From Bacteroidota bacterium (GTDB lineage: Bacteria > Bacteroidota > Ignavibacteria > Ignavibacteriales > Ignavibacteriaceae), in contig JAKAGV010000001.1 of NCBI GenBank assembly GCA_021815405.1, forward strand, positions 248,001-312,000: a stretch of 64,000 bases of DNA, read 5' to 3'. Each line of letters begins with the position of its first letter. The first letter of the stretch is position 1. Shown here piece by piece: positions 2,320-64,000 of the stretch. The notes below the pieces were generated by a model, which was not told where the DNA came from, searched no databases, and worked only from the letters and a program-made list of their open reading frames with translations. A program made the position numbers and the translations under genes.

Positions 2320-2327
2320 CTTTTAAT

Positions 2328-3644
2328 ATGAGTTTGTTATTAATAGCTTTTATAACCATTTTGGGTATATTATTAGGAAAATACCTTTTTAAGAAGTGGA
2401 GTAATCATTTAACTTTTTATTGTATAATAATGGGAGGTCTGGTTTTTTTATATCAACTTAAATTACTTCCTTATGTGAATCTAATCCCATTAGCTTGGTT
2501 TTTTGTTATTGCCTCTTTCTTATCGTTTTTATTTGGGATAATAACCGTAGTCAGCGCTAGAAACTTATTCCCTAAGATTAAAATATTCTTTAAAGAATCA
2601 AATATTGACCTACCAATTTTTTCGGATGGCGGGAAAGCATTAAAATATTCTATCCTCTTTTTCAGTTTAATTGGATTATTCGTCGCCTTGCAAAGATGGT
2701 GGGTATTAATTCATATGTTCGGAAGTATTCAAGGAGTTATGATAAATGCTGCCATAGTTTATCGATTAAACGTTCATCGAGAGATAAAAGAATTCATTCC
2801 TATACTTCCCTCATTCGTATATATTGCTGTATTTTTATCTGGGATATATACTGCATATAAAGGAAAATTTTCTTTCCTTTCATTCTTTCCATTCATCGAC
2901 ATCGTACTAAAGGAGTTAACATATTTTGGTAGGGGTGAAATATTACTATCGCTAATGGAGTTTATGTTTTCCTTTTTATTGTTCAGGCATTTACTTAGTG
3001 ATGATAAATCAAAGAGATTTAAGTTCTCAAAAAAGAATGCAATTGTAGCATCAACCGTATTGATGGTATTCTTAATTGCTACTTCTTCTTTAATAAGAGT
3101 TTCGAGAGGAAACTATGAAAATTATGTTGGGGCAAGCAAAGGTTTAAGCTCATTAAAAAGTAATTTTATTATTTCACCTTCAATATACCTATACTTAAGC
3201 AGTGACATAGGAGTATTTAGTCAATACCTAAAAGCAGGAGGCGAACATCCATATTTTGGCGAAAATACTTTCCTAATATTTTACGATTTTTTATCAAAAA
3301 TCGGAGTAATAAAGCGACCATCTGATTTTCAAAAAGGCTATTTTATCCCGATGTGGACTAACACTGGGACGTATATAAGGGAGCTGCACGCAGATTTTGG
3401 ACCTGCCGGTGTATTCATAGGTTCATATTTAATTGGATTATTACTTACGTGGCTTTGGTTTAAATTTTTTGAAGGTAAGAATCTTATTGTATTTGCTTTT
3501 CTTGTTTATTTGTATCTGATAATAGGATTTTCATTTTTAGTTATGGTAACAAGGTTGACGCAATGGTATATTAGTCTCTTTTTCATAATTCTTTATTTGC
3601 CGCTTTTAGAGAAAGCAGCTTCAAGAAAGAGTATAGCAGTTTAA
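2328..3644 (+). CDS. O-antigen/exopolysaccharide polymerase (Wzy-like membrane protein)
   Basis: The 438-residue product is almost entirely hydrophobic, with roughly ten to twelve membrane segments and a larger extracytoplasmic loop around residues 255-350. This is the architecture of Wzy-type oligosaccharide polymerases, which join undecaprenyl-linked repeat units in the periplasm. Sequence conservation is weak in this family, so the call rests on topology and on its position between a Wzz-like and a Wzx-like gene. It starts 8 bases after the chain-length gene and probably shares its transcript. A different multi-spanning transporter is possible but less likely here. Confidence 0.7.
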   Translation: MSLLLIAFITILGILLGKYLFKKWSNHLTFYCIIMGGLVFLYQLKLLPYVNLIPLAWFFVIASFLSFLFGIITVVSARNLFPKIKIFFKESNIDLPIFSDGGKALKYSILFFSLIGLFVALQRWWVLIHMFGSIQGVMINAAIVYRLNVHREIKEFIPILPSFVYIAVFLSGIYTAYKGKFSFLSFFPFIDIVLKELTYFGRGEILLSLMEFMFSFLLFRHLLSDDKSKRFKFSKKNAIVASTVLMVFLIATSSLIRVSRGNYENYVGASKGLSSLKSNFIISPSIYLYLSSDIGVFSQYLKAGGEHPYFGENTFLIFYDFLSKIGVIKRPSDFQKGYFIPMWTNTGTYIRELHADFGPAGVFIGSYLIGLLLTWLWFKFFEGKNLIVFAFLVYLYLIIGFSFLVMVTRLTQWYISLFFIILYLPLLEKAASRKSIAV

Positions 3645-3655
3645 TTGATATTTAA

Positions 3656-5170
3656 GTGAAAGAACCGGAAACTATAAACATAACATACAGCGGTAAGTTA
3701 ATAGCCAAGAATTCCTTATTTAATTTATTGGGATACGGAATTCCTATAGTATTCGCGTTGGTTATTATCCCGTTTTTGATCAAAGGGCTAGGGACGGAAA
3801 GGTTTGGGATCCTTAATCTTGCATGGGTTATAATAGGTTATTTCAGCTTCTTTGATTTTGGAATAGGGCGAGCTTTAACAAAAATTTTAGCAGAAAAAAT
3901 CGGAGTGAACCAGGATGAAGAAATACCTGGAATATTCTGGACTTCATTTTACATGATGCTGGCTATAAGTCTTGTAGGTACTATAATTTTATTATTTTTT
4001 ACACCAACTTTTATTTATAATGTTTTTAAAATTTCTAAAGCACTTCAACCTGAGACTTTAAAAACTTTTTATGTACTTGCTCTTTCAATCCCAGTAGTTA
4101 CTACAACGGCAGGAATAAGAGGTGCACTTGAGGCTTATCAAAAATTCGGGATAATAAATGTAATTAGAATTTTCCTAGGCGTATCAATGTTCCTAGTTCC
4201 TTTGTTATGCCTGATTTTTACAAATAGTTTATTCTGGATAGTATTCTTTCTTTTAGTGGTAAGAATAATAGTCTGGTTGCTCTATTTAATTCAGTGTTTT
4301 AAATTAAATCAAAAACTCAAAAGTCAATTACGTTTTGAAAAAAAACTGATTAAACCAATACTTAAATTAAGCGGCTGGATGACGGTATCAAATATTATTG
4401 TCCCATTAATGGTTTATCTCGACAGATTTTTAATCGGTGCTTTAGTCTCGGCGACGGCTATAGCTTATTATGCAACACCATACGAAGCGGTAACAAAATT
4501 ATTATTAGTGCCCGGTGCTTTAATAGGAGTTTTATTCCCGGCATTTTCAGCAAGCTATTCAAATAATCCTGACTTTACTAAGAAGTTATCATTTAGAGCG
4601 GTCAAGTATATTTTCATATTTTTATTCCCGGTCGTTCTTTTAATCATAACTTTTGCTCATGAAGGAATGGGATTATGGCTCGGAAAAAAATTTGCAGATC
4701 ATAGTACTTTGATTTTACAACTTCTGGCAGCGGGAGTTTTGTTTAACGGAATAGCATATATTCCATTTACATTCTTACAAGGAATTGGAAGACCAGACAT
4801 AACAGCAATAGTCAATTTAATTGAACTGCCTTTTTATTGTATAGGGATGTGGCTTGCGATTAAATTTTATGGGATAAATGGTGCTGCATTAGTATGGTTA
4901 CTGAGAATGTTGGTTGATGCACTCATTTTATTTTTGTTTTCAATGAAGATTATATCTGCTCATCTAGAATTTAATTTTAAAATGAGTTATGCATATATCT
5001 TAGTTTTAGTATCAGCGTCAATACTTCCCATTTTAATAAGCAGTATCAGCTTTAAGTTTGTATTTGTTTTGGTAATTTTATCAGCGTTCTTGATTATATC
5101 ATGGAAATATTTTCTGCTTGAAGAGGAGCGAATGTATTTAATTTCTCGTATTAAAATTTTTAATTCTTAA
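3656..5170 (+). CDS. Oligosaccharide flippase (Wzx/RfbX-type)
   Basis: This 504-residue protein has about 12 to 14 membrane segments and the N-terminal polysaccharide-export pattern (KNSLFNLLGYGIPIVFALVI, then GLGTERFGILNLAW). Wzx proteins move lipid-linked sugar repeat units across the inner membrane. The start is a GTG, 11 bases after the polymerase stop; the hydrophobic core begins about 20 residues in, which fits this start. A second flippase of similar size lies at 17981-19450, outside the main cluster. Confidence 0.88.
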   Translation: MKEPETINITYSGKLIAKNSLFNLLGYGIPIVFALVIIPFLIKGLGTERFGILNLAWVIIGYFSFFDFGIGRALTKILAEKIGVNQDEEIPGIFWTSFYMMLAISLVGTIILLFFTPTFIYNVFKISKALQPETLKTFYVLALSIPVVTTTAGIRGALEAYQKFGIINVIRIFLGVSMFLVPLLCLIFTNSLFWIVFFLLVVRIIVWLLYLIQCFKLNQKLKSQLRFEKKLIKPILKLSGWMTVSNIIVPLMVYLDRFLIGALVSATAIAYYATPYEAVTKLLLVPGALIGVLFPAFSASYSNNPDFTKKLSFRAVKYIFIFLFPVVLLIITFAHEGMGLWLGKKFADHSTLILQLLAAGVLFNGIAYIPFTFLQGIGRPDITAIVNLIELPFYCIGMWLAIKFYGINGAALVWLLRMLVDALILFLFSMKIISAHLEFNFKMSYAYILVLVSASILPILISSISFKFVFVLVILSAFLIISWKYFLLEEERMYLISRIKIFNS

Positions 5171-5175
5171 AGCTG

Positions 5176-6177
5176 ATGCAGAAATCTGAGACGGCAGATA
5201 ATAAAAAAAGTATTGGGGAAATTGATCTTCCGGATAAGAAGCTATTACTTTCTTTTATAATTATTAATTATAACTTAGCCAATGAAATTGAAAACTGCCT
5301 TACCAGCCTTCTTGATAAAATTCATTCAACCCGCCAGATTAAATATGAGATAATAATTGTAGATAATAATTCTCCCGATAGAAAATTGCCTTTTGTAGAA
5401 AACAAATTCAAAAATGAAAAGGTTAGATTTTTTTATCTAGATGAAAATACCGGATTCGGTAAAGGATGTAATTTCGGCTTTTCAAAATCTTCCGGTGAAT
5501 ATATTTGTTTTTTAAATCCTGATACAATAATTAAAGAAGATATTTTTGCACAGATAATAAGCCAATTTGAAAATAATAAATCAATAGGAATTATTGGACC
5601 AAAGCAGCAAACAAGAAAACCCTTTTTTGATTTTTCGGCAGGCTATTCTCCAAATATTTTTTTTGAATTATTTAATTTATTGGGGCTTGGTGTCTTCCTT
5701 GAAGGATTTATTATTTTTCTAATAACAAAATTAAAGAAGAATAAGAACCTAGAAGTTAAATGGATTTTGGGAGCCGCAATATTTATTAGAGCAGAATTAT
5801 TTAGAGAAATTGGCGGCTTCGATAAAGATTACTTTATGTTCTTTGAAGAGGTAGACCTGTGCAGAAGAGTATCTTATAAAAATTATAAAGTTGTTTATTC
5901 TCCTAAATTAAAGATTCATCATATCGGAAGTGTTTCCGGTAAGAAAGATTACAGACTTTATACAATCAGAACATATTCCAGCAAAAATATTTATATAACA
6001 AAACATTTTAAATCTATTTATAGATTTTTATTGAAATTTCTTTTATCTGCTCAATTGTTTTCTCAGATTATTATCTGGAGTATTTTATCAATTTTTAACA
6101 GGGAAAAGTCGCAGCAGAAAATTAGTGCGTTTTTGTATTTGTTGAAACATAAAATGAAGTATGAACATAGGAATTGA
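5176..6177 (+). CDS. Glycosyltransferase family 2 (rhamnosyltransferase-like)
   Basis: A 333-residue GT-A fold enzyme. Visible are the nucleotide-sugar binding start (SFIIINYNLANEIENCLTSL), IIIVDNNSPD, FLNPDTIIKED, the acceptor segment GGFDKDYFMFFEEVDLCRRV, and a late hydrophobic stretch near residues 280-305. This arrangement matches WbbL/WcaE-like transferases, often rhamnosyltransferases, which extend a lipid-linked sugar chain on the cytoplasmic face. Sugar specificity cannot be read. The 3' end overlaps the next gene by 17 bases, so the two are likely translated together. Confidence 0.85.
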   Translation: MQKSETADNKKSIGEIDLPDKKLLLSFIIINYNLANEIENCLTSLLDKIHSTRQIKYEIIIVDNNSPDRKLPFVENKFKNEKVRFFYLDENTGFGKGCNFGFSKSSGEYICFLNPDTIIKEDIFAQIISQFENNKSIGIIGPKQQTRKPFFDFSAGYSPNIFFELFNLLGLGVFLEGFIIFLITKLKKNKNLEVKWILGAAIFIRAELFREIGGFDKDYFMFFEEVDLCRRVSYKNYKVVYSPKLKIHHIGSVSGKKDYRLYTIRTYSSKNIYITKHFKSIYRFLLKFLLSAQLFSQIIIWSILSIFNREKSQQKISAFLYLLKHKMKYEHRN

Positions 6178-7276
6178 CGCAAGAATATTAGATAGAAAAA
6201 TAAGCGGCATCGGAAGATTCTTAAAAACTTTTTTAGAAGAGCTGCCGGCAGTGGATAAAGACAATAAATATTTCATTTTTTCCTATGGAAATCTAAATAT
6301 TAACCCGGGTTATTATACCAACGTTTCTACAATCAGAAGCTTTCTTCCTCAAAAGCTATTCGCTCCTTTTTGGTGTAATTTCATATTGCCGCATTTTTTA
6401 AAAAAGAATAAGATCGATATACTTTTCTCGGTTAATCAGCTTATTCCTTTAATCAAAATAAAAAATATAAAATATATATTAGTCCTGCACGATGTTATAT
6501 ATAAAGTAGATAAGACATTTCATCCTTTCATTTATAGGAAATATTTACAGTTCTTCACATATTTTTCTATTAAGAGCAGCGATTTAATAGTGACCGTATC
6601 TCAGTATTCAAAACAAGATATAATGAGGTATTATAAAGTTTCGGAAGATAAAATAAGAGTTGTTTACGAAGCAGCGGAAAAGGAATTTAGGATTATTGAT
6701 CTAACAGAAAAAGATAGACAAAAGATAATGGAGATTCTCGGTTTTCCCAAGAACATTGTTCTTTATGTAGGAATGATCGAGAATAGGAAGAACATAAGAG
6801 GTATTTTAAGGATTGCAGATGAAGTATATTTGAAAGATACCGATATTAAATTCGTACTGATAGGCAAAATAGGTTATGGAGGGGAGAAATTATTAGAGGA
6901 AATTAAACAAAGGAAAAATATTATTTATTTAACTAATGTCAGCGACGAGCTTTTAAAAAAAATATATAATATTTCTACTGTCTTTTTGTTTCCATCATTT
7001 TATGAGGGATTCGGTTTCCCGCCTTTGGAAGCCATGCAATCCGGATTACCGGTGATAGCTTCTAAAAATACTTCCTTGACTGAGATTATTGATAACGGCG
7101 GCTTGCTTCATGAAGCTAATGACCATCAATCATTTGTTAATGATGTTTTAAGATTAATTGAAGACAAAGAATTCCATTTGGACATTAAAAACAGGGGAAT
7201 CGAAAGAGCCAAAGTTTTTAATATAAATAAAACAGTAAATGATCTTGTCAGTGTGTTCAATTCATTTAAGCAATAA
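6161..7276 (+). CDS. Glycosyltransferase family 4 (GT-B fold)
   Basis: The 371-residue product has the GT4 C-terminal signature: GMIENRKNIRGILRI for the donor-site loop and the EX7E motif in FYEGFGFPPLEAMQSG, followed by GLPVIASKNTSLTEI. The N-terminus (MNIGIDARILDRKISGIGRF) is typical of mannosyltransferase-like members. GT4 enzymes are retaining transferases using nucleotide sugars. It overlaps the preceding GT2 gene by 17 bases. A 118-base gap to the next gene holds no recognisable signal and may be where an internal promoter sits. Confidence 0.87.
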   Translation: MNIGIDARILDRKISGIGRFLKTFLEELPAVDKDNKYFIFSYGNLNINPGYYTNVSTIRSFLPQKLFAPFWCNFILPHFLKKNKIDILFSVNQLIPLIKIKNIKYILVLHDVIYKVDKTFHPFIYRKYLQFFTYFSIKSSDLIVTVSQYSKQDIMRYYKVSEDKIRVVYEAAEKEFRIIDLTEKDRQKIMEILGFPKNIVLYVGMIENRKNIRGILRIADEVYLKDTDIKFVLIGKIGYGGEKLLEEIKQRKNIIYLTNVSDELLKKIYNISTVFLFPSFYEGFGFPPLEAMQSGLPVIASKNTSLTEIIDNGGLLHEANDHQSFVNDVLRLIEDKEFHLDIKNRGIERAKVFNINKTVNDLVSVFNSFKQ

Positions 7277-7394
7277 GCCTTAGCTTTCATAATAACTTGC
7301 GAAAAATTTAATATATTTATGATTGTTTGTTCAAAAATTAATTCAATGTAACCTATTTTTATAATAAGAGCTAATTTTTAATCGCTGAAATGAA

Positions 7395-8201
7395 ATGCTG
7401 AAAGTCTTATTAGTAACACAAGACGATCCTTTTTATATTCCAATATTTTTTAAAGAACTATTTAAAGTAGACATTTCTCGGAAGTTTGAACTTCTTGGAA
7501 TTATAATACAGCCTCCGCTCGGAAAGAAATCAATCAAGAAATTGATTTTCCAGATGTTGGATTTTTACGGCTTGTTTAATTTTCTACTCCTAGGGACAAA
7601 ATACGCAATATATAAATTATTTAATACCTTAGCTCTCAGAGTTTTTAACGGAAAATTTCCCGGCGTCTTTTCTGTAGAACACATATTGCGTAAGAAAGAT
7701 TTAAGAATTATCCAAATAAAAAATATTAATGCGAAAGAATCTTTGGATTATCTTTCGGGTTTTAATCCGGATATTATTTTTTCAATTGCGGCAAGCCAGG
7801 TATTCAAAAAAGGAATATTAGAACTGCCTAATATCGGGTGCTTCAACATACATACTTCTAAGCTTCCAAAAAATAGAGGAATGATGCCTAATTTTTGGTC
7901 GCTTTATAATTATGATAAAGATGCTTACAGTGCGATTACCATACACAAGATGAATGAAAACTTGGACGATGGTGAAATATTATTACAGAAAGATTTTAAA
8001 TTAGACCCGAATGAATCATTAGATACTTTAATTAGAAGGACAAAAAAGTTAAGTGCCGAAATTTTCTTACAAGCGATTGACTTACTTAATAACAATAAAA
8101 TAGATTTCATTAAAAATGATTCTACAATGGCTACATATAATTCCTTCCCGAAAAAGGATGACGTTTTGAGATTTAAAGCCAAGGGGCTCAAAATAAGATG
8201 A
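7395..8201 (+). CDS. Formyltransferase-family protein, probable sugar N-formyltransferase
   Basis: This 268-residue protein carries the formyltransferase core: CFNIHTSKLPKNRG (the N-x-H catalytic pair and the S-K-L-P-x-x-R-G loop), then YSAITIHKMNENLDDGEILL with the catalytic aspartate. The methionyl-tRNA formyltransferase C-terminal domain is missing, and the N-terminal about 110 residues are divergent. In polysaccharide clusters such proteins usually formylate an amino sugar with 10-formyl-tetrahydrofolate. The stop overlaps the start of the deacetylase gene (ATGA), so the two are translationally coupled. A role on another amine cannot be excluded. Confidence 0.78.
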   Translation: MLKVLLVTQDDPFYIPIFFKELFKVDISRKFELLGIIIQPPLGKKSIKKLIFQMLDFYGLFNFLLLGTKYAIYKLFNTLALRVFNGKFPGVFSVEHILRKKDLRIIQIKNINAKESLDYLSGFNPDIIFSIAASQVFKKGILELPNIGCFNIHTSKLPKNRGMMPNFWSLYNYDKDAYSAITIHKMNENLDDGEILLQKDFKLDPNESLDTLIRRTKKLSAEIFLQAIDLLNNNKIDFIKNDSTMATYNSFPKKDDVLRFKAKGLKIR

Positions 8202-9043
8202 AGGCTCTTTTAAGTATAGATGTGGAAGATTGGTTTCAAGTAGAAAATTTGAAGCAGGCGATTGACCGTAAATCTTGGAACAGTTACGAATCAAGAGTTG
8301 AAAAAAATATTAACTTAATTCTTCAGTTATTAGATGATAGAAATACAAAAGCAACATTTTTTGTCTTAGGCTGGATTGCAGAGAAACATCCCGCATTAAT
8401 AAAAAAGATATTTAATGAGGGACATGAAATTGCGTGTCATGGCTATAACCATGAGCTAGTCTATTCACTTTCACCGGAGAAATTTCATGAAGATGTTTCA
8501 TCAGCAAAAAAATTGTTAGAAGATATTACGGGGGATAGAATTATTGGTTATCGGGCACCGAATTTTTCGATTACCGATTCAGCTATAGATATTCTAAGCT
8601 CTTTAAATTTCAGATATGATTCCAGTTTATTCCCGATTATTTTGCATAATAGATATGGCAGACTTAATAATTTCCCTGTCAATAATAAAACTATATTTGA
8701 AATAAAGAAAAACTTTTTCCAGATAGAATTATCATATTATGAATTTTTGAATTTAAAGCTGCCATGGGCAGGAGGATTTTATTTCAGGTTTATTCCGTAT
8801 TATATTTTTAATAAGGGGATAAATTCAATTTTAAAGAATAAAGAATATTATATTTTTTATATTCATCCATGGGAGTTCGACCCCGGACAGCCAAGAATTA
8901 AAAATATTAAACTCAATTATAAGCTTAGACACTATACTAATCTGCACAAGACTGAAAATAAGTTTAAGAGACTTATTCAAGATTTCAGATTTTCTCCAAT
9001 TAGGGAAATTATTCTACCGGTAAAAGAAAATTTAAAAATATAA
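8198..9043 (+). CDS. Polysaccharide deacetylase, XrtA-associated type (NodB + DUF3473)
   Basis: A 281-residue NodB-fold deacetylase. It shows motif 1 (LLSIDVEDWFQVE), motif 2 with the metal histidines (ACHGYNHELV), motif 3 (GYRAPNFSIT), and the C-terminal HPWEFDPGQPR plus RHYTNLHKT segment seen in the DUF3473 subfamily found near exosortase loci. It removes N-acetyl groups from sugars. No exosortase is visible in the window. The start overlaps the stop of the formyltransferase gene by 4 bases, so deacetylation and formylation may be successive steps on one amino sugar; that link is inference. Confidence 0.87.
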   Translation: MKALLSIDVEDWFQVENLKQAIDRKSWNSYESRVEKNINLILQLLDDRNTKATFFVLGWIAEKHPALIKKIFNEGHEIACHGYNHELVYSLSPEKFHEDVSSAKKLLEDITGDRIIGYRAPNFSITDSAIDILSSLNFRYDSSLFPIILHNRYGRLNNFPVNNKTIFEIKKNFFQIELSYYEFLNLKLPWAGGFYFRFIPYYIFNKGINSILKNKEYYIFYIHPWEFDPGQPRIKNIKLNYKLRHYTNLHKTENKFKRLIQDFRFSPIREIILPVKENLKI

Positions 9044-9057
9044 TTCCTCTACTGTGA

Positions 9058-9894
9058 ATGGAATATAGTAATAACATATTAGTAAGTATAGTTATGCCAA
9101 CATACAACCGTGCAGGTACTTTAGGTATGGCAATTGAAAGTGTGTTAAAACAGTCGTTCCAATCTTGGGAATTAATTATTGTCGACAATGAATCTACTGA
9201 CAATACAGAAGAAGTCGTAAAAAAATATTCAGAAAAAGATAAAAGGATTAAATACTGCTATGTAAAAAAAAGCAGTAATAAAGGTATCTCCGAATATTTG
9301 AATTACGGAATTTCTATTGCAGAAGGAAGATATATAGCACGACTTGATGATGATGATGAATGGTATGATCAGAATAAGTTATCAAAGCAGGTAGATTTTC
9401 TGGAACAAAATAGCGACTATATTTTAGTTGGTGGAGGGGCAGTAATGGTAGATGGGAATAGAAAAGAAATATTTAAGTTTTACAAAAGGGACAAAGATGA
9501 TATAATAAGGAGACATGCTTTGTTGGCAAACCCTTTTTGGCATAATACAGTTATGTTTAGAAAAAAAGAAGCTTTGGAATTAGGAGGATATAGAAATTTT
9601 AGATTTGTAGAAGATTGGGATTTATGGCTTAGGTTTGGGGAAGTCGGAAAACTATATAATTTCAAAGAGTATTTTTCTTTGTACATGAATGCCGGTCAAA
9701 ATTTGTCAGTTGGTAATCAGAAACTTGCAGCAAAGACTATTTTGAAGCTAATCAAATTATATCGATATAAATATCCAAATTATTGGAAAGCTTTTATCAT
9801 AAACTTTTTGCAATATATGTTTGCATTTTTACCTTTGTTTATTAAAAAAAGAGTACAGAATTTTTTATTTTTTGTTAAAAGAAATTATTTATAA
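9058..9894 (+). CDS. Glycosyltransferase family 2
   Basis: This 278-residue GT-A enzyme begins with SIVMPTYNRAGTLGMAIESV, has IIVDNESTDNTEE, the metal-binding ARLDDDDEWY segment and the late EDWDLWLRFGEVG acceptor motif. This is the EpsE/WcaA-like pattern of cytoplasmic glycosyltransferases in polysaccharide synthesis. A hydrophobic patch near residues 245-262 may attach it to the membrane. It starts 14 bases after the deacetylase and stops 17 bases before the initiating transferase. Donor and acceptor sugars cannot be told. Confidence 0.86.
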   Translation: MEYSNNILVSIVMPTYNRAGTLGMAIESVLKQSFQSWELIIVDNESTDNTEEVVKKYSEKDKRIKYCYVKKSSNKGISEYLNYGISIAEGRYIARLDDDDEWYDQNKLSKQVDFLEQNSDYILVGGGAVMVDGNRKEIFKFYKRDKDDIIRRHALLANPFWHNTVMFRKKEALELGGYRNFRFVEDWDLWLRFGEVGKLYNFKEYFSLYMNAGQNLSVGNQKLAAKTILKLIKLYRYKYPNYWKAFIINFLQYMFAFLPLFIKKRVQNFLFFVKRNYL

Positions 9895-9911
9895 AATTTT
9901 TTAGTTCCATA

Positions 9912-11315
9912 TTGAACAAAACATTCGAAAAAATATTAATACTTTTTATAGACTTCATCACCATCAACCTTGCATGGATGATTTATTATCAGCTCAGGGT
10001 AACATCCGGATGGTTTGAAGTGCTGGGCAGACCTGAATTCTACCTGCCCATGTTTGTAATTTATTTTTACTGGCTTGTTATTTTTACTTTTGTCGGAATG
10101 TATAGAACGTGGTTTGCTGCGTCAAGATTGGATGAGCTTTCTACTTTGTTCAAGGCATCGTTTGTAGGGATTTTTGTTTTATTCTTCTTAATTTTTATTG
10201 ACGACTACATTAACGGTGTCGGTTCGGCAACAAGGATTTTACTTTTTATTTATTGGGGATTGTTTTTATTCCTTACCGGTGCCGGAAGATTATTTATCAG
10301 AAGCTTCCAGCGAAAGCTGCTAATAAAAGGAATCGGACGGAAGAACGCTCTTATTATCGGCTTTAATGAAAAAGCAAAAGAAGTAATGAACCAGATTAAA
10401 CAGCATCCGGCTCTCGGTTTGGATGTAGCTGCTTTCATTCCGGTGAACGGTTCAAAAATTTCTGATGAATACGAAGGTGTTAAAGTTGTAGATTCAATTA
10501 CTAATCTTACAAGTGATATTGATAATTATAATGCTAAAGAAGTTGTAATAGCCTTAGAGAAAGAAGAAAGAGATTCTTTAGTTGAAATTATTGCAAAGTG
10601 CGAAACAAAGAACGTCGGGTTAAAAATTGTTCCCGATCTTTATGAGATTTTAAGCGGACAGGCAAAGACCTCGCAGATATACGGCATTCCTCTTATCGAC
10701 ATAATGCCGCAGTTGATGCCGGAGTGGGAAAAAAGATTGAAGAGGCTTATCGACATTCTGGTATCTTTTTTAATCTTATTAGTAACTCTTCCGGTTACTT
10801 TAATTACTGCTGCCGCAATTAAATTAGACAGTGTCGGACCTGTATTTTTTACACAGGAAAGATGCGGCATTGACGGGAAAATATTTAAGATGATAAAATT
10901 CCGTTCGATGAGGAAAGATGCGGAGAAATTAACCGGACCGGTTTGGTCGCAGAAGGATGATCCGAGGATAACCAGGGTGGGGAAAATAATACGTAAAGTA
11001 AGGATTGATGAAATTCCTCAGATGTTAAATGTATTGAAAGGTGAGATGAGCATTGTTGGTCCGAGACCGGAGAGACCGTATTTTGTTGAGAAGCTTGCAA
11101 CTGAAATTCCATATTATAAGCGGAGATTAAAAGTCCGTCCGGGCATAACCGGCTGGGCGCAGGTAAAGCATAAATACGATGAATCAATTGAAGATGTTAA
11201 GGTGAAGCTGCGATATGATTTATTCTATATTGAAAATATGTCACTGAGAATGGATTTCAAAATTTTGTTTAGAACGGTGTTTATTGTACTGCTGGGTAAG
11301 GGTCATTACGACTGA
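9912..11315 (+). CDS. Initiating polyprenyl-phosphate sugar phosphotransferase (WbaP/WcaJ-type)
   Basis: The 467-residue product starts with a TTG and has four or five N-terminal membrane helices, a CoA-binding-like central domain (about 140-265), and the full C-terminal phosphoglycosyltransferase domain (about 275-467). Key pieces are the re-entrant helix, IKFRSMRKDAEK, the catalytic Asp-Glu in KVRIDEIPQMLNVLKGEMS, IVGPRPERPYF and RPGITGWAQV. The family transfers a sugar phosphate to undecaprenyl phosphate and so starts repeat-unit assembly. A second protein in this window (12978-14963) carries a related domain without these residues. Confidence 0.9.
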   Translation: MNKTFEKILILFIDFITINLAWMIYYQLRVTSGWFEVLGRPEFYLPMFVIYFYWLVIFTFVGMYRTWFAASRLDELSTLFKASFVGIFVLFFLIFIDDYINGVGSATRILLFIYWGLFLFLTGAGRLFIRSFQRKLLIKGIGRKNALIIGFNEKAKEVMNQIKQHPALGLDVAAFIPVNGSKISDEYEGVKVVDSITNLTSDIDNYNAKEVVIALEKEERDSLVEIIAKCETKNVGLKIVPDLYEILSGQAKTSQIYGIPLIDIMPQLMPEWEKRLKRLIDILVSFLILLVTLPVTLITAAAIKLDSVGPVFFTQERCGIDGKIFKMIKFRSMRKDAEKLTGPVWSQKDDPRITRVGKIIRKVRIDEIPQMLNVLKGEMSIVGPRPERPYFVEKLATEIPYYKRRLKVRPGITGWAQVKHKYDESIEDVKVKLRYDLFYIENMSLRMDFKILFRTVFIVLLGKGHYD

Positions 11316-56546: not shown

Positions 56547-59500
56547 ATGATCCTTAAAAATTTACTCAAAACTTTGCTAGCGCTTGCCGTGTTTACTATC
56601 TTGGTAAGTTCGGCAACGTTTGCACAATTATCGACAGTATATGTTGACGTTACGAATGGATCGGATACATATACTGGCGCTAATGCAATAAACAATCCGG
56701 CAGGTTCGGGCCCTAAAGCCACGATAGATGCTGGTCTGAAAGCATTAGCTAATAATGGTACTCTAGTGATTATGGCGGGTACTTATGACGGAGTCGATGG
56801 GAACAATACTGCTGTAACAATCAATACTACCAACTATCCAAATTTAAAAGCTGGTGGTAGCCTAACTATTCAATTACAGAGCCTTAACTCCAATAGTGTT
56901 ATTAACCTAGCAACTGGAGGAACCTTTACTTATGACATTCCAAATGGAACTTTGAATGTTACTTCTGGTTCAGGTGCTGAATCGTTGACTTTGCCTTCTG
57001 GTATAACATTAGGCAGTCTTACAGATACCTCAACTGTCAATATTTCTAATTCTAACTATGTCCAAATTCCAAGTGGATCAACTATAACATTATACAATTC
57101 ATCAATGTTTAGTGCTCAAGCACCAAAAAGCGGAGCTAATATTTCGTTGTCATATATCGGCGCTGCTACTTTTACGGGTTCATTTACTGCCGGTGCTGAA
57201 TCTAATTACGGAAGTTATGGAACCGGGACAATCACGGTTAATGATCCTAAAGGTTCAATAACATTCCCAAATACAATTACATCTGTCGCTGGTTTTACAT
57301 TAACGAGCGGCAATGCTACTTTTAGTGGTGCTGTTACATTAGCTGACAACATTACTGTAGCAAGTGGTAATGCTACATTTAATAATACGGTTTCATTAGG
57401 TACCAATGATATATTTAATAATGGAAATGGTGCTATTACATTTAACAGCGGAGTAAATTTCAGTATTACAACTGGAAGCGCTGATGCGAATTTAGGTAGA
57501 GTTGTTAATGCTAGCACGGGTTCAATTACTTTTAGCGGAACCGCAACATGGAATGGGACCTTTGGTGCTACAAATACTTATGCAAACTATGTTATAGATA
57601 ACCAAAGTACTGGTGCTATAGCTTTTAATTCCAATTTAAGTTTTGTTTCACCTAACAGTGCTGGATTTGTCGCTACATTAACTGCGAATAACGGAGGCGG
57701 TGGAACATTAACCTTAGGTACAATCGGATATACTACTCCTAGTACTAGTAACATTGTACTGAACGTACAAAGTACTGCAGCAAATGGACATCTTAATTTA
57801 GCCGGAGGATCAATAACAGGTTTCTTAACAAATGTTGATACAACAACTGTTAATGGTGCTTTATCTTTAGCTGGTGTTCTTACAAACAGTAAACTAATGA
57901 CATTAGGTGTTAATACTTTAACACTTAGTGGCAACAATGCAAATGCAACCAACGGTGGAACTATTACTGCGACTACTGGTGGACTATTAGTAACGGCAAG
58001 CGGTGCAAATTCATTTGATGGTGGTACGCTTTCAAATTTAACTATTAACGGTGGAGGTACAACTTCAATTTTGGGTGCTGCAGTTGATTCTAATTTGACT
58101 GTAACAAAAGGAACTTTAACCGTTAGTGCTAATCTTACATCGAATGGTACAACTACACTTAATGGCGGTACAGTTAATGTAGGCGCTTTTACTTTTCAGA
58201 CTTTGAACTATCAACAAAGCTCTGGAACATTTTCTTTAGCAGCAAGTGCATCCTCAATTCTAAATGTTCTTGGTAATTTCAGTAATACAGCAGGTGCAAA
58301 TACGTTTACTGCTGGAACTGGCTCATTAGTTGAATTTACAGGTGCGACTGCTCAGACTTTTGCAGGCGGTCCTTTAATTACCGTAAGCAATTTAACTTTT
58401 AATAATACAAAAGGTATTATAACAGTTTCTCAATCAGTTAGAGCAACTGGATTGGTTACAATTGCTGCAAAAACTAATGTAGCTCTTAGTACATTAAATA
58501 TAATTCTTTTTGCCAATAATGCTGGTATCAGCAACCTCGGTTCCTATACAGCAACCGGCGGAGGCGGCGTTATATTTGGTGGTGTTAATACGATTACAGG
58601 TGCAGTTGCTAATTATACAGGTCAAACACTTTCGGGAACCGGTTCTTTCTCTAACATCACTGTTGATGTTGGCACTAGTAACTTTATTACAACGCCCGGT
58701 GGAAATAATGTTACATTTAACGGTGTTTTGTATTTAAGAAGCGGTGATCTGCAGATTACCTCTGGTGATTTCGGTCCAACAGGGACATCTGCTTTAATTA
58801 ATCGCGATATCTCCACGGGATCTGGAAGTGCTAATGGTATCGTATTGAATGGTGGTACATTTAATACGAATAAGCCTACTGTATATGACTTAACATATTC
58901 AGGTAGTTTAACGACACCTACATCAGTAGCAGTTGGAACTACAGAATTCTCTGCTGCATATGTACGTAATTTAACTATCTCTACTTCGGAAGCAACAGCA
59001 ACTAATTTGTTAACTTTAACTTCTGCAAGTACAGTTACAATAAATGGAAATTTAACTCTAACAACTCCAACTTCAGGTTATAATGAATTTGATTTACCTG
59101 CACAAGTTGATACTGTGTATGGAACATTATACGTTCAATCAGGAACAGTATTGGGAGGCGGCGCTGCTGCAGATTCAATATTTTTACCTGGAAGTGGATT
59201 GACCCATGTAGTTGCAGGAAAAGTAAGCAACCTTGGTGTATTAACTGTTACCGGCTCGGGTTCCGCATTGAACGGATCGACTGTGAAAGCTGATGCAGCA
59301 ACAATTGTAACAGGTTATGCTTTTGAACCAGCAGCTAATAGTTCCAGTTTTAACTCTGCTAATTTGAAAACAGTTGGAAACATTACTGTACAAGGAAGCA
59401 GTTCTGCAACTGGTGCAAGCGCTACTATAACAATGAATGATACTACTGCAACTTTAGGTAATTTATCAGTTGGAAATGGCGGCAACGCACCAACAGTGAA

Positions 59501-62500
59501 CTTTACTTTAAGTGGAAAAACTTCGCCGGCGCAAACAGGTAATATTATGCTAACTAATGGTAATCTTACCTATACAAGAGTCAACGATATGGTTCTCGGT
59601 GGAGGCGTAACCTTAACTGCCGGTACATTAACTCTGGGTTCTAATTTATCTGTAACTGGTGCTACCGCACAAGCAAAAGGCAATATCAACACCCAAAGCT
59701 ACACGTACACCCAGTTAGGTGGTCAAAACTATACTAGAACCAATAGCGGTACTTTTGCAGGTACATTGATCTTAGATGCTACTAATGGTAATATTAGTGT
59801 GATACCTGGTGCATCATTTGTTGTCCCAAATTTGCAGTCCATTGGTACAGCGAATGGTGTAAGTGCTGGAAAGATGACTGTCAGCAATTCATTACTATTG
59901 GATAATGCTTCTACATTTGCTGAGTCAGATACTTTATTTGTTTCTGGTAATACAGTATCTGTAACAAATGACTTTGGCGGTTTTACCGGTGCATTAGATT
60001 TAATGGGTTCTGCTGCTACAGCAACATTCGGCAATGATTACACTATTCCGACTTTGGTTGTTAACTCTACAGGAACTGTAACTATTGCTTCAGATAAGAG
60101 TACAGCGCGTACAATTACGGTTAACACTGCGTTTAACAACGTTGCTGGAACTTTAGCTCTTGGTATTAACAATTTAGTAATTACAAATCCTGCAACATTT
60201 ACTTATAAAGCTGGTGCAATTACCCAGGGCACAGGTATGCTTACATGGAACACCGGTGGTGCATTCACTCTTGCAGCTACAGGTTTTTCAATTGATAATT
60301 TAACTGTAAGTACTGCAGTTAATGTTGGTACAAGTGCATTTTCGGTAAATAAAAACTTAATATTAAGTGCAGGAATCACTACTAGTGCTGATGGTAAGCT
60401 TACACTTGGTGATGGTATACAATTAACAAGAACAGCAAATGCTGCTACATTATCAAATATACCGACCTTTGCAGGAAAAACTAATGTAACTTATAATACA
60501 TACACTGGTGCTGTTGATATTACTACAGGTAATGAACTGCCTACCTCTGCGACTAATCTTAATAATCTTACAGTTTCAGCAGGTGCAAATCATGTAGTAT
60601 TAGCTTCGGCAATAACTGTTAATGGAACGTTAACATTGGCTAATTTATTAGATAATACTAATAAGGCTATTACAATGGCAAACGCTTCTACACTTGTTTT
60701 ACAAATTACTGGAACTTCAGCTTTGAGCAAAGATCTTGTCAAAGCAGGTTCTATGTCATTAGTTTATGATGGTGCAACATCTACATCAACAAGAGAACTC
60801 GGTGCATTGCCCCATCCCACATACACTGGAGCCATAACTGTTAAATCAGCAACTGTTCAGTTAGACGGTGATTTAACAACCAGCGGAGTATTCACTTTAT
60901 CTGGCGGCAGCTTTGATATGAATGGTAACAATCTATCATTTGCAAACGATGTTATATTTACTTCTGCTAGTAGTGCTATTGTGAACAGCGGCGCAGCCAA
61001 AGCGTTAAGCTTTACAGGAAATGCAAATACTGCATTAACTCTACAAAACAATTGGGCTGTCCCTGCTACAATTAACTTTACCTTAAATAAAACTAATGGT
61101 AAAAATATGGTTACTTTTAGCGGCGGTAATCTTTCGTTTGTCAATCCAAGTGCTACAGGCCCGAATCTCTTCTTTGTTAATGGATTACTTGTAGCGGCAG
61201 GAAACCAAACAGTAACCTTAGTTCAAAATAATAGTGGCAACGGGCAGGCTGCAATTCAAGGTTATGATAGAACCGGTGTAACCGGAACTAACATGAGCCA
61301 AATTGTTGGAAAAGTGATTAAGAATGTTGTAGCAGGTGCTAATGGAGTTGGAAGATATGAATTCCCTGTTGGCTCAGATACAGCATATATGCCGGCAGCA
61401 TTTACATTCCCTTCTAATCCAGTATACGGCTTTAATCTTGCTGTTGCTGCAGTTGATACTACTCCTGCGGGAACAAATGGATTGAGCGCCTTAAATCTTG
61501 CTTATCCTAACTTCTACTGGTTAATAAGTTCGGATGTTAACCTTGGAACAGCAATAACATTCAATCTTGAATTAACTGCTCAAGGTTTCGCTAATTTCAG
61601 TAACATAGCAGATCTGAAAATAATCAGAAGAGTAGATGGCGATACAACTGCTAACCAGTGGGTATTGCAAGGTAGTAATTATGATAATTATTTAGTCGGC
61701 AGCACTCCTACCGTAGATAACACTGGTTCAACCGGTGGAATTAATCCTGCAGGTGCCAGATTTACATATGGATTAAAGGTTGTTGCTCCTACTGCGTTTA
61801 CAGTTTCTGGAAAAGTTACTTACGGAAACGGTGCAACTGGAGTAAAGAATGTAATAGTTACATTAAACCCAGGCGGTATGACAGCAACTACAGATACAAC
61901 TGGTGCATATTCAATTGCTAATGTACCAAATGGTACTTATACAGTTGCAGCTACTTCAAGCAATGCTTGGTTAGGCGCAAATGCTACCGATGCATTACTT
62001 GCATCTAATTATTACAATGGTACTCAAACTTTAACAACAATACAGCAACTAGCTGCTGATGTGAATGTCAGCGGTTCTGTTAACAATACAGATGCTTTAT
62101 TAATAGTAAGAAGATTTGCAGGATTAGATAATTCATTTGCTGCAGGCAACTGGGTATTCACTACTGCGAACTTAACTGTTAATGGTGCTAATGCAACTGC
62201 TAACTTATCAGGATTAGTTGCCGGTGATGTTAATGCATCAGATGATCTGAGCACGCTGAAACGTTCAAGCACAGTTAGCGTAGTTTCAGAGGGTCAATTA
62301 AAAGTAAATGGAAAAGATGCGATTGAAATTCCTGTGGAAGCAGGAAGTAATATGAGCCTTGGAGCGATAAGCTTAAGGTTAACATATCCTACAAACCTTG
62401 TTACATTCGAAGGTGCAACTTCGGGTGCAAGCGTAATTGCAAATGATCAAAACGGGCACATTACAATTGCATGGGCTGATCTATCAGGCGGCAAGAATCC

Positions 62501-62957
62501 GTTTAACGTAAAAGCAGGCGAAAGCTTAGTTACGTTGAAATTTAAGCCTACAGCCGAATTCAAGACTGGTACTCAGTTCAGTTTAAGTGTGGACAATGAT
62601 GCTAGTGAATTTGCAAAAGAGGATGGCAGTGTTTTAAGCAGCGCTTCTATAAAAGTTCCTTCTGTTGAAGCCACTGTTCCTACACAGTTTGCTCTTAAAC
62701 AAAACTATCCAAACCCATTTAATCCATCTACAACAATAGAATACGATCTGCCTGCTAATGGTATGGTCAGACTCGTTATCTATAATGTACTAGGTCAAGA
62801 AGTAGCTACACTAGTTAACCAAATGGAAAATGCAGGCTCATACAAGATAGTATGGAACGCAGATAATTTGGCTAGCGGAATGTATATCTACAGAATGACA
62901 GTAGAATCTGGAAGCCAGAAATTCACTCAAGTCCACAGAATGATGCTTCTAAAGTAA
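56547..62957 (+). CDS. Giant T9SS-sorted surface protein with beta-helix, dockerin-like and cohesin-like parts
   Basis: A 2136-residue protein. A signal peptide (LALAVFTILVSSATFAQ) leads to VYVDVTNGSDTYTG, a common start of right-handed beta-helix domains. Residues about 100-1680 are low-charge Gly/Thr/Asn/Ser/Ala-rich repeats with many GTLTLS- and NLTV-type strands. About 1752-1830 is a carboxypeptidase-regulatory-like fold (SGKVTYGNGATGVKNV). About 1834-1900 is dockerin-like (ADVNVSGSVNNTDALLIVRR, then GDVNASDD). About 1918-2035 is cohesin-like, and 2041-2136 is the T9SS domain (QNYPNPFNPSTTIEYDLP). It is likely a surface fibre or scaffold-bound protein. AGGAG precedes the ATG by six bases. 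Confidence 0.82.
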   Translation: MILKNLLKTLLALAVFTILVSSATFAQLSTVYVDVTNGSDTYTGANAINNPAGSGPKATIDAGLKALANNGTLVIMAGTYDGVDGNNTAVTINTTNYPNLKAGGSLTIQLQSLNSNSVINLATGGTFTYDIPNGTLNVTSGSGAESLTLPSGITLGSLTDTSTVNISNSNYVQIPSGSTITLYNSSMFSAQAPKSGANISLSYIGAATFTGSFTAGAESNYGSYGTGTITVNDPKGSITFPNTITSVAGFTLTSGNATFSGAVTLADNITVASGNATFNNTVSLGTNDIFNNGNGAITFNSGVNFSITTGSADANLGRVVNASTGSITFSGTATWNGTFGATNTYANYVIDNQSTGAIAFNSNLSFVSPNSAGFVATLTANNGGGGTLTLGTIGYTTPSTSNIVLNVQSTAANGHLNLAGGSITGFLTNVDTTTVNGALSLAGVLTNSKLMTLGVNTLTLSGNNANATNGGTITATTGGLLVTASGANSFDGGTLSNLTINGGGTTSILGAAVDSNLTVTKGTLTVSANLTSNGTTTLNGGTVNVGAFTFQTLNYQQSSGTFSLAASASSILNVLGNFSNTAGANTFTAGTGSLVEFTGATAQTFAGGPLITVSNLTFNNTKGIITVSQSVRATGLVTIAAKTNVALSTLNIILFANNAGISNLGSYTATGGGGVIFGGVNTITGAVANYTGQTLSGTGSFSNITVDVGTSNFITTPGGNNVTFNGVLYLRSGDLQITSGDFGPTGTSALINRDISTGSGSANGIVLNGGTFNTNKPTVYDLTYSGSLTTPTSVAVGTTEFSAAYVRNLTISTSEATATNLLTLTSASTVTINGNLTLTTPTSGYNEFDLPAQVDTVYGTLYVQSGTVLGGGAAADSIFLPGSGLTHVVAGKVSNLGVLTVTGSGSALNGSTVKADAATIVTGYAFEPAANSSSFNSANLKTVGNITVQGSSSATGASATITMNDTTATLGNLSVGNGGNAPTVNFTLSGKTSPAQTGNIMLTNGNLTYTRVNDMVLGGGVTLTAGTLTLGSNLSVTGATAQAKGNINTQSYTYTQLGGQNYTRTNSGTFAGTLILDATNGNISVIPGASFVVPNLQSIGTANGVSAGKMTVSNSLLLDNASTFAESDTLFVSGNTVSVTNDFGGFTGALDLMGSAATATFGNDYTIPTLVVNSTGTVTIASDKSTARTITVNTAFNNVAGTLALGINNLVITNPATFTYKAGAITQGTGMLTWNTGGAFTLAATGFSIDNLTVSTAVNVGTSAFSVNKNLILSAGITTSADGKLTLGDGIQLTRTANAATLSNIPTFAGKTNVTYNTYTGAVDITTGNELPTSATNLNNLTVSAGANHVVLASAITVNGTLTLANLLDNTNKAITMANASTLVLQITGTSALSKDLVKAGSMSLVYDGATSTSTRELGALPHPTYTGAITVKSATVQLDGDLTTSGVFTLSGGSFDMNGNNLSFANDVIFTSASSAIVNSGAAKALSFTGNANTALTLQNNWAVPATINFTLNKTNGKNMVTFSGGNLSFVNPSATGPNLFFVNGLLVAAGNQTVTLVQNNSGNGQAAIQGYDRTGVTGTNMSQIVGKVIKNVVAGANGVGRYEFPVGSDTAYMPAAFTFPSNPVYGFNLAVAAVDTTPAGTNGLSALNLAYPNFYWLISSDVNLGTAITFNLELTAQGFANFSNIADLKIIRRVDGDTTANQWVLQGSNYDNYLVGSTPTVDNTGSTGGINPAGARFTYGLKVVAPTAFTVSGKVTYGNGATGVKNVIVTLNPGGMTATTDTTGAYSIANVPNGTYTVAATSSNAWLGANATDALLASNYYNGTQTLTTIQQLAADVNVSGSVNNTDALLIVRRFAGLDNSFAAGNWVFTTANLTVNGANATANLSGLVAGDVNASDDLSTLKRSSTVSVVSEGQLKVNGKDAIEIPVEAGSNMSLGAISLRLTYPTNLVTFEGATSGASVIANDQNGHITIAWADLSGGKNPFNVKAGESLVTLKFKPTAEFKTGTQFSLSVDNDASEFAKEDGSVLSSASIKVPSVEATVPTQFALKQNYPNPFNPSTTIEYDLPANGMVRLVIYNVLGQEVATLVNQMENAGSYKIVWNADNLASGMYIYRMTVESGSQKFTQVHRMMLLK

Positions 62958-62994
62958 AGAGCCTTATAGGAGGGGTCTTTATTTAAAACTTCAT

Positions 62995-63028
62995 AGGATC
63001 CCGGCAAAAGCCGGGATCCTTATTTAAA
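62995..63028 (+). terminator. Intrinsic terminator after the giant surface-protein gene
   Basis: Perfect 11-base arms AGGATCCCGGC (62995-63005) and GCCGGGATCCT (63010-63020) with an AAAA loop, then TATTTAAATT. It is 38 bases after the stop and 26 bases before the next start. Transcription of the cohesin gene may thus be separate or by read-through. Confidence 0.85.
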
Positions 63029-63053
63029 TTCTAAATATGAGTGAAGGATACTT

Positions 63054-64000
63054 ATGAAAAAAATATTTTATTTGTTTGTTGGTATTTTACTGTTGAGCAC
63101 GTTTAATGCATTTGCTCAAGGTACAACAATGTCCCTTGGAACAGTAACTGCAGCAGCGGGAGATACAGTACTCGTGCCAATAAATGTTTCGAATTTTAAT
63201 AATGTTGGTGCTATATCGTTAAAGATCTCATATAATAGTGCGTCGCTTACATATGTTGGAGTAGTAAATGCGCCTACAGGAGTTAATTTTACAGATAACG
63301 CAAGTGGAGGTGTGGTTACACTCGGGTGGTTTGATGCTACAGCTTCTTCTCCAGTAAATATTTCAAACGGGAAATTAGTTGATTTAAAATTTGTTTTCAG
63401 CGGAACGACAAGCAATCTAACTTTTAATACTTCTCAATGTGATATTGCAAATGAAACTGCCACATCACTTTCAGTTACTTATACAAATGGTGCGGTAAAT
63501 TCAAGTTCATCAACAAGTCTTTCTATACCAAATGTTACCGCTACACCTGGAAGTAATATTTCCGTTGCGGTTCAATCTCAGCATTTTAATAATGTCGGGG
63601 CTGTATCATTAAAAATCTCTTATGATACTACAAGTTTAGTTTTCTTAGGCATTGCAAATACAATTAATAGTGCTAACTTTACATCGAGTGCCAGCAATGG
63701 AATAATTTCATTAGGTTGGTTTGATGCAACAGGTACTCATCCGATATCGGTTGATACTCTTGCTAAGCTATTAGATTTACAATTTAAATTCAAAGGCGGT
63801 ACAAGCTCATTGTCATTTAATACCGCTCAATGTGATATTTCAAATTCTACAGGGGTTTCTCTAACAAACGTAAATTATGGAAATGGACAAGTATCTGCTA
63901 CGGCAGGAACAACTCCTTCGCTAAAGCTGGGAACTGTTACCGGTCAAGCAAATGTAAGTGTTCCATTAACTGTTCAATCTTTTAATAATGTCGGAGCGAT
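63054..64000 (+). CDS. Secreted protein of tandem cohesin-like repeats (3' end outside window)
   Basis: From ATG 63054 the frame is open to the window end (315 codons). A signal peptide (KIFYLFVGILLLSTFNAFAQ) is followed by two complete cohesin-like repeats and the start of a third. FNNVGAISLKISY, GWFDAT and CDI-type strands recur, spaced 130 then 132 residues (F at 63195, 63585, 63981). Cohesins bind dockerins. The neighbour upstream has both dockerin-like and cohesin-like parts, so this may be a scaffold protein, but binding is inferred. The C-terminus, and any T9SS domain, are not visible. Confidence 0.8.
   Translation, partial: MKKIFYLFVGILLLSTFNAFAQGTTMSLGTVTAAAGDTVLVPINVSNFNNVGAISLKISYNSASLTYVGVVNAPTGVNFTDNASGGVVTLGWFDATASSPVNISNGKLVDLKFVFSGTTSNLTFNTSQCDIANETATSLSVTYTNGAVNSSSSTSLSIPNVTATPGSNISVAVQSQHFNNVGAVSLKISYDTTSLVFLGIANTINSANFTSSASNGIISLGWFDATGTHPISVDTLAKLLDLQFKFKGGTSSLSFNTAQCDISNSTGVSLTNVNYGNGQVSATAGTTPSLKLGTVTGQANVSVPLTVQSFNNVGA

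Follow-up and report, generated by a model that had tools for sequence, protein, structure and literature searches.

A 64,000-nucleotide stretch of an Ignavibacteriaceae genome (Bacteroidota bacterium, GenBank assembly GCA_021815405.1; 4.97 Mb, 31 contigs) was analyzed; this stretch, the window, comprises bases 248001 to 312000 of contig JAKAGV010000001.1 (C23 in our numbering). Two adjacent genes at its downstream end probably encode the core pair of proteins of a cohesin-dockerin docking system on the cell surface. Protein A carries a dockerin, a cohesin and a C-terminal sorting tail of the type IX secretion system (T9SS), and protein B is the adjoining multi-cohesin protein; homologues of A are termed A-like. 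Genomic loci, genomes and contigs are labeled L, G and C, respectively, and G000 is the genome under study. A scaffold is the reading that best fits the data, and with it we infer that A pairs with B; the modules, the tails, the secretion machinery, the gene order and the co-occurrence across genomes are observed. The module content of A and B is judged to be beyond chance, because curated families match over their cut-offs and the gene order recurs in other genomes.

Modules of proteins A and B

The relevant features of the window are as follows.

56547 to 62957, + strand: protein A, 2,136 residues (open reading frame list, Pfam, NCBIfam, local cohesin profile)
56547 to 61796, + strand: A 1-1750, signal-peptide-like start, then a repetitive region rich in beta strands (translation, by eye)
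61797 to 61952, + strand: first part of a CnaB or carboxypeptidase-regulatory-like sandwich, A 1751-1802 (Pfam, model)
61953 to 62141, + strand: dockerin, A 1803-1865, first calcium loop degenerate (Pfam, fold)
62058 to 62093, + strand: intact calcium loop DVNVSGSVNNTD, A 1838-1849
62142 to 62246, + strand: strands predicted to complete the CnaB sandwich downstream of the dockerin, A 1866-1900, with G-D-V-N-x-S at the end (model)
62271 to 62654, + strand: cohesin of A, A 1909-2036 (Pfam, local profile, fold)
62706 to 62918, + strand: T9SS C-terminal sorting domain of A, A 2054-2124 (Pfam, TIGR04183)
62995 to 63020, + strand: terminator-like 11-bp hairpin between A and B (gap folding)
63054 to 64000, + strand: protein B, first 315 of 1,090 residues, continuing to C23:314326 (open reading frame list, Pfam)
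63123 to 63506, + strand: B cohesin 1, B 24-151 (Pfam, local profile)
63507 to 63902, + strand: B cohesin 2, B 152-283 (Pfam, local profile)
63909 to 64000, + strand: start of B cohesin 3, B 286 onward, interrupted by the window end (Pfam, local profile)

An earlier note on this DNA had described a 2,136-residue T9SS-sorted protein with dockerin-like and cohesin-like parts beside a protein of tandem cohesin-like repeats. Both descriptions hold: A has Pfam matches over cut-off and a cohesin fold, and B, which starts at 63054, has six Pfam cohesin stretches. Dockerin_1 (PF00404) matched A at residues 1812 to 1856 with 34.5 bits (cut-off, 22.9; E value, 2.4e-8), and Por_Secre_tail matched residues 2054 to 2124 with 34.6 bits (cut-off, 27), as did TIGR04183. 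The cohesin of A was detected by PF00963 in the genome-level Pfam search (window positions 62316 to 62582; 26.7 bits; cut-off, 24.1) and is not listed in the protein-level Pfam scan. It matched a local cohesin profile, of which it is itself a member, at an E value of 1e-40. A profile of eight cohesins (the six of B, that of A and that of the L002 protein) matched solved type I cohesins, from scaffoldins of Clostridium acetobutylicum and C. cellulolyticum, at E values from 1e-10 (6kgc) to 2.5e-8. With the CnaB-dockerin of A as profile query, 8x39, a double dockerin, was recovered at 5.7e-5, and 4wi0, an X-dockerin, at 4.5e-3. The Pfam scan of A gave no family over cut-off within residues 1 to 1750, a region that looks adhesin- or solenoid-like by eye; also by eye, the N termini of both A and B are signal-peptide-like.

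The complete protein B has 1,090 residues. In it, Pfam finds six cohesin stretches (224.5 bits; protein E value, 6e-67) along with a Big_9 domain and a T9SS tail, the last with 39.7 bits for Por_Secre_tail (cut-off, 27) and a match to TIGR04183. No catalytic domain was found in B by the Pfam scan, nor was a carbohydrate-binding module (CBM) at an E value of 0.1.

A divergent dockerin predicted to lie within a CnaB sandwich

An AlphaFold2 model of A 1747-2046 (300 residues; 34 sequences in the alignment) had a mean predicted local distance difference test score (pLDDT) of 93.8 and a predicted template modeling score (pTM) of 0.89. Its cohesin (model residues 163 to 299) superposed on the ScaC cohesin 4uyp_A with a Z score of 14.2 and a root mean square deviation (rmsd) of 2.7 Å over 134 residues. 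When the dockerin was modeled alone (70 sequences; pLDDT, 91.7; pTM, 0.78), ranks 1 to 25 of the Foldseek search were all dockerin chains, at E values from 0.0096 upward with none below 0.001, and the 24 rows listed by VIA were dockerin or X-dockerin chains (best Z score, 8.8; rmsd, 2.5 Å; 61 residues). By these models, the module of A has the dockerin three-helix fold. The earlier note had placed it at residues 1834 to 1900, which must be corrected: the dockerin spans about residues 1803 to 1865, and residues 1866 to 1900 form, according to the model, the end of the sandwich.

In the A 1747-2046 model, several CnaB and transthyretin-like chains spanned model residues 5 to 146 while aligning just about 76 to 92 residues; for example, 79 residues of 5aq0, an 81-residue chain, aligned at 1.7 Å. 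The dockerin appears to be inserted inside the CnaB sandwich, with strands 123 to 145 (model numbering) closing it, because helices 67 to 111 cannot be part of the sandwich. Excision of the dockerin raised the SdrD_B score of A from 26.9 to 32.0 bits and that of a 561-residue deacetylase of the same genome (see below) from 37.1 to 38.4 bits, with a 563-residue deacetylase going from 31.1 to 31.0 bits; the CarboxypepD_reg score of A rose from 33.5 to 34.0 bits, and those of the deacetylases fell from 39.8 to 38.5 and from 41.6 to 40.0 bits. This sequence test is mixed, and the insertion therefore rests on the model.

Calcium ligands, which the earlier note had made a check on the dockerin, were recovered in one loop of two. 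Across the 70 sequences, loop 2 is canonical and near-invariant (D1 in 68, N or D at position 3 in 69, N9 in 66 and D12 in all 70). Loop 1 is not conserved in this way: positions 1 and 3 have no conserved ligand and position 5 is W in 67 of 70 sequences, with N9 and D12 kept. A type I dockerin is expected to have two F-hand calcium loops, of which only loop 2 is intact here, so the module of A is a divergent dockerin. An analysis of dockerin-cohesin covariation within A-like chains was dropped at an alignment of 34 rows (effective number, 27).

Dockerins, cohesins and T9SS components of the genome

A genome-wide count of dockerin proteins, proposed in the earlier note, showed that A is not alone. 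PF00404 matched at five places, namely, A, two polysaccharide deacetylases (L003 and L004) and two beta-helix proteins (L005 and L006). The deacetylases, of 563 (L003) and 561 (L004) residues, end in the same CnaB-dockerin module as A, and the protein scan found no T9SS tail on either; in a profile search, the module of one of them matched the CelS dockerin at 9e-6. The beta-helix proteins (L005:8404-12114 and L006:5418-9638) carry a second class of dockerin, with two classical loops, together with a T9SS tail; their dockerins are flanked by cohesin-like domains, those of L005 being recognized by eye only.

Cohesins are present in A (one), B (six), a 1,112-residue L002 protein (one), the L006 protein (one) and a gene on contig C5 (one); by local profile, there were at least 10 cohesin matches in the genome, with 14 of 47 candidates scored. 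T9SS tails are carried by A and B as well as by the L002 and L006 proteins, which are the remaining intact proteins with a cohesin (Pfam, NCBIfam). The C5 gene (L090:7443-8609, G000:C5), which encodes a cohesin, an SdrD-like domain and a T9SS tail, has an in-frame TGA inside the cohesin and is probably a pseudogene. The searches for T9SS machinery, which covered SprA and the PorV family, gave an SprA_N match of 160 bits and 14 PorV-family matches over cut-off, and there were at least 139 T9SS tail matches in the genome (150 of 175 candidates scored).

Conservation of the A-B pair and co-occurrence of its modules

Among 80 genomes of the family, Pfam found cohesin in 35, dockerin in 41, both in 31 and cohesin only in 4. 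Across the 294 genomes of the class, strict cut-offs (CnaB-dockerin E value of ≤1e-20; cohesin E value of ≤1e-12) gave CnaB-dockerin in 18 genomes, cohesin in 16 and both in 15 (Fisher P = 2e-21, with cut-offs set post hoc, once the matches were known, and phylogeny ignored in this and the following test); strict cohesin was thus present in 15 of 18 genomes with strict CnaB-dockerin versus 1 of 276 others. With looser cut-offs, the corresponding numbers were 36, 58 and 24 (P = 3e-11), cohesin being found in 24 of 36 genomes with CnaB-dockerin versus 34 of 258 others. At most 13 or 14 candidates were scored per genome in the class searches, so these counts are lower bounds.

Gene order was assessed in 80 loci, the best among 218 that a search with only the dockerin module had found. 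A cohesin gene is next on the same strand after 29 of 56 A-like genes; 20 of these 29 next genes have at least two cohesins, and 3 are themselves A-like. Duplicate loci were removed, and the counts exclude A-like genes with <700 bases downstream, open reading frames cut at the locus end and A-like proteins whose post-dockerin stretch fell outside 150 to 260 residues. An accompanying figure of 13 of 17 is biased, since the regions were partly picked for dockerin and cohesin matches lying close together. In the 12 class cassettes listed, the multi-cohesin gene has three cohesins (ten cassettes) or six (two cassettes), with a tail in 12 of 12; in the L072 cassette, a single-cohesin gene lies between the A-like and multi-cohesin genes. 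In the class loci examined, 35 of 37 cohesin proteins lacking a CnaB-dockerin carry a tail by the local tail profile. One of the 29 pairs is that of Natronoflexus pectinivorans DSM 24179 (L162), with a T9SS tail over cut-off on both genes.

Hairpins of at least 11 pairs (G-T counted) were found in 11 of 13 A-B gaps, compared with 17 of 82 other same-strand gaps of the same loci (P = 1.4e-5). They occur in the window and in L032, L036, L037, L074, L075, L077, L078, L079, L092 and L093, and their sequences are unrelated among loci. Fifteen A-B gaps were folded in all; L070 and L139, which lie outside the 13, have no strong hairpin, and with L070 included the count is 11 of 14 (P = 4.8e-5). The terminator-like hairpin weakens an operon reading of A and B, and it may set the A:B ratio.

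Tail-less dockerin proteins

After removal of duplicate loci, there are 34 distinct proteins in which a CnaB-dockerin stops no more than 40 residues short of the C terminus. Thirteen of them match a deacetylase profile built from the two deacetylases of this genome, and the others scanned with Pfam include GH18, CotH kinase, DMFA2-like, C39, M14 and S8 peptidase, alpha-amylase and beta-helix proteins. At L143 (positions 2322 to 9672), the first of three consecutive genes encodes an adaptor with three cohesins and a CnaB-dockerin, the second an alpha-amylase-dockerin and the third a subtilase-dockerin. In L033, L034, L035 and L038, a tail-less dockerin protein, CotH or DMFA2-like, is encoded about 200 bases upstream of a gene with an N-terminal cohesin; the Pfam scan covered L033 and L038 of these four. 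The N-terminal-cohesin genes of L034 and L038, whose ends are on the contig, finish in a T9SS tail.

In this genome, the dockerin deacetylase of L004 (positions 4921 to 10113) adjoins an SLBB protein and a Wzz/tyrosine-kinase-like protein, a neighborhood that suggests exopolysaccharide modification. An SLBB/Wzz-type pair lies beside the dockerin deacetylase in 2 of 10 loci (L004 by Pfam and L057 by eye) and not in the other eight, which makes the exopolysaccharide role only a hint.

Proposed mechanism and alternatives

In the docking system that we propose, A and B would cross into the periplasm by Sec and, as their tails and the machinery suggest, pass the outer membrane by the T9SS and be held outside by their C-terminal tails. 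B would be a noncatalytic scaffold presenting six type-I-like cohesins. A would be a long surface protein with a CnaB-embedded dockerin and its own cohesin, that is, both plug and socket, so that it could plug into B or a further molecule of A while its own socket stayed available. Secreted CnaB-dockerin proteins that have no T9SS tail, here the two polysaccharide deacetylases, would be held at the surface by the cohesins of A and B; both this location and the assignment of dockerins to cohesins are steps that we infer. The purpose might perhaps be the trimming of the cell's own exopolysaccharide.

Several observations weigh against such a system. The first calcium loop is degenerate across the 70 family sequences. 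Dockerin occurs without cohesin in 10 of the 80 family genomes, and cohesin without dockerin in 4 (Pfam); G018, G008 and G232 have a CnaB-dockerin and no cohesin even at an E value of 0.1 (in G232, Pfam finds no dockerin in the two proteins concerned), and G263 has a CnaB-dockerin with only a weak cohesin match. The post hoc cut-offs and the neglect of phylogeny also count here. No adjoining cohesin gene follows 27 of the 56 A-like genes, and a cohesin gene is next in only 5 of 50 rows of tail-less dockerin proteins with room downstream (duplicates included). A four-cohesin protein at L121 has no tail by Pfam or NCBIfam, the tail-less cargo has no evident route over the outer membrane, and A and B may, given the hairpin, not share one full-length transcript. 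Finally, the high pTM of the model (0.89) suggests that the cohesin of A has a fixed place against the CnaB-dockerin, so that the dockerin could be occupied in cis.

The last point is central to an alternative that has a modest chance of being correct, in which the dockerin of A-like proteins pairs with the following cohesin of the same chain and stiffens the stalk near the membrane, the cohesins of B serving other partners. The pTM of the 300-residue segment of CnaB, dockerin and cohesin implies that these parts are fixed relative to one another in the model, and the post-dockerin stretch is of similar length, about 220 to 245 residues, in most A-like proteins. However, the CnaB-dockerin is the chain end in the 34 distinct proteins described above, 33 of which have no cohesin in their visible part (some are truncated at the 5' end), and pairing within the chain leaves the frequent separate multi-cohesin gene downstream unexplained. 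We think it unlikely that the pairing has a second role, in export, in addition to anchoring; if it did, tail-less dockerin enzymes would bind a tailed cohesin protein in the periplasm and ride the T9SS channel with it, one tailed scaffold ferrying several cargos.

It is distinctly unlikely that the two modules never pair and are simply calcium-stabilized spacers in long T9SS adhesins. Cohesin folds do serve as spacers in other proteins, and A has a long region of beta-strand repeats and no catalytic domain in the Pfam scan; this explanation is nevertheless difficult to reconcile with the co-occurrence of dockerin and cohesin across genomes, the recurring gene order, the enzymes that end in a CnaB-dockerin and the L143 adaptor, whose three cohesins and CnaB-dockerin adjoin dockerin enzymes. 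Very improbable, in our view, is a role of the C-terminal CnaB-dockerin as a sorting or anchoring signal of tail-less proteins rather than as a cohesin plug. Its terminal position in 34 distinct proteins without a tail, at most 40 residues from the C terminus, and its presence in genomes with no detected cohesin would fit such a signal, but A-like proteins hold the module internally in addition to a normal T9SS tail, and the module has a dockerin fold and one calcium loop that is conserved. A cell-surface docking system built on A and B remains the preferred reading.

Comparison with known systems

The proposal of the earlier note, a cohesin-dockerin scaffold displayed by the T9SS, stands as far as the modules, which are genuine, the T9SS route, which is present, and the pair, which recurs, are concerned; it does not extend to a cellulosome in the strict sense. 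A cellulosome has a noncatalytic multi-cohesin scaffoldin, to which B corresponds in its Pfam domains, and dockerin-bearing plant-polymer hydrolases, none of which was found among the five PF00404 places. The A-B system would operate in the manner of a cellulosome scaffold; since hydrolases and CBMs were looked for and not found, it is not classed as a cellulosome. It shares with the clostridial cellulosome (CipA/CipC type) the type I cohesin and dockerin families, a multi-cohesin scaffold and dockerins on enzymes. In contrast, no cellulase or CBM was found in the parts of A and B, just two dockerin enzymes are present in this genome, the host is an outer-membrane bacterium with T9SS tails, and one calcium loop is intact.

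In X-dockerin dyads (CipA, 4wi0; Ruminococcus flavefaciens CttA, 4iu3), an Ig- or CnaB-like X module is likewise joined to a dockerin, and A matches 4wi0 across the X-dockerin joint (E value, 4.5e-3). The X module of CipA simply precedes the dockerin, whereas by the model the dockerin of A lies inside the CnaB sandwich and not after it. Peer et al. reportedly described cohesin and dockerin modules outside cellulosomes in 2009. Such noncellulosomal modules (Archaeoglobus, 2xdh; C. perfringens, 2jh2) resemble ours in that respect; what sets the present modules apart is their recurring arrangement as a two-gene T9SS cassette, together with a partner that has several cohesins and with enzymes lacking a tail as cargo.

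Published accounts of this lineage and of Bacteroidetes describe cohesins, dockerins or cellulosomal structures as lacking, namely, in Melioribacter roseus (PMC3534657), in Paraporphyromonas, "consistent with other Bacteroidetes" (PMC5831590), and in two soil cellulolytic species (PMC6247017). In the accessible part of a study of single-cell genomes, Pfam dockerins are reported for Bacteroidota and cohesin only for Christensenellales (PMC10266427). Our literature search, mostly of titles and the beginnings of abstracts, with most of the subscription literature lying outside it, found no publication that describes a cohesin cassette of T9SS type from either Ignavibacteriota or Bacteroidota. The T9SS-tailed cohesin cassette spans both groups, including the cultured N. 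pectinivorans, and would qualify the view that such modules are absent for a sizeable group (M. roseus itself lies outside this analysis). It would also offer surface engineering a Gram-negative docking system, and it raises a testable question as to the route by which tail-less dockerin enzymes cross the outer membrane.

A cellulosome-like system was inferred, from sequence only, in "Candidatus Stygibacter" of the Cloacimonadota in 2021 (PMC8542988). As far as the accessible text of that account goes, its likeness to the A-B system lies in a noncatalytic tandem-cohesin protein whose C-terminal domain would attach it to the cell's own surface, for which a T9SS review is cited, and in dockerin-tagged enzymes with signal peptides. 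The differences are that its scaffoldin has 3,755 residues, carries CBM2 and CBM3 and belongs to another phylum; the same text mentions neither a two-gene cassette nor a dockerin that is embedded in CnaB or has only half of its calcium loops intact (PMC8542988). The features that are new here are the dockerin that, by the model, lies inside a CnaB sandwich, the half-intact calcium loops and the recurring hairpin between A and B.

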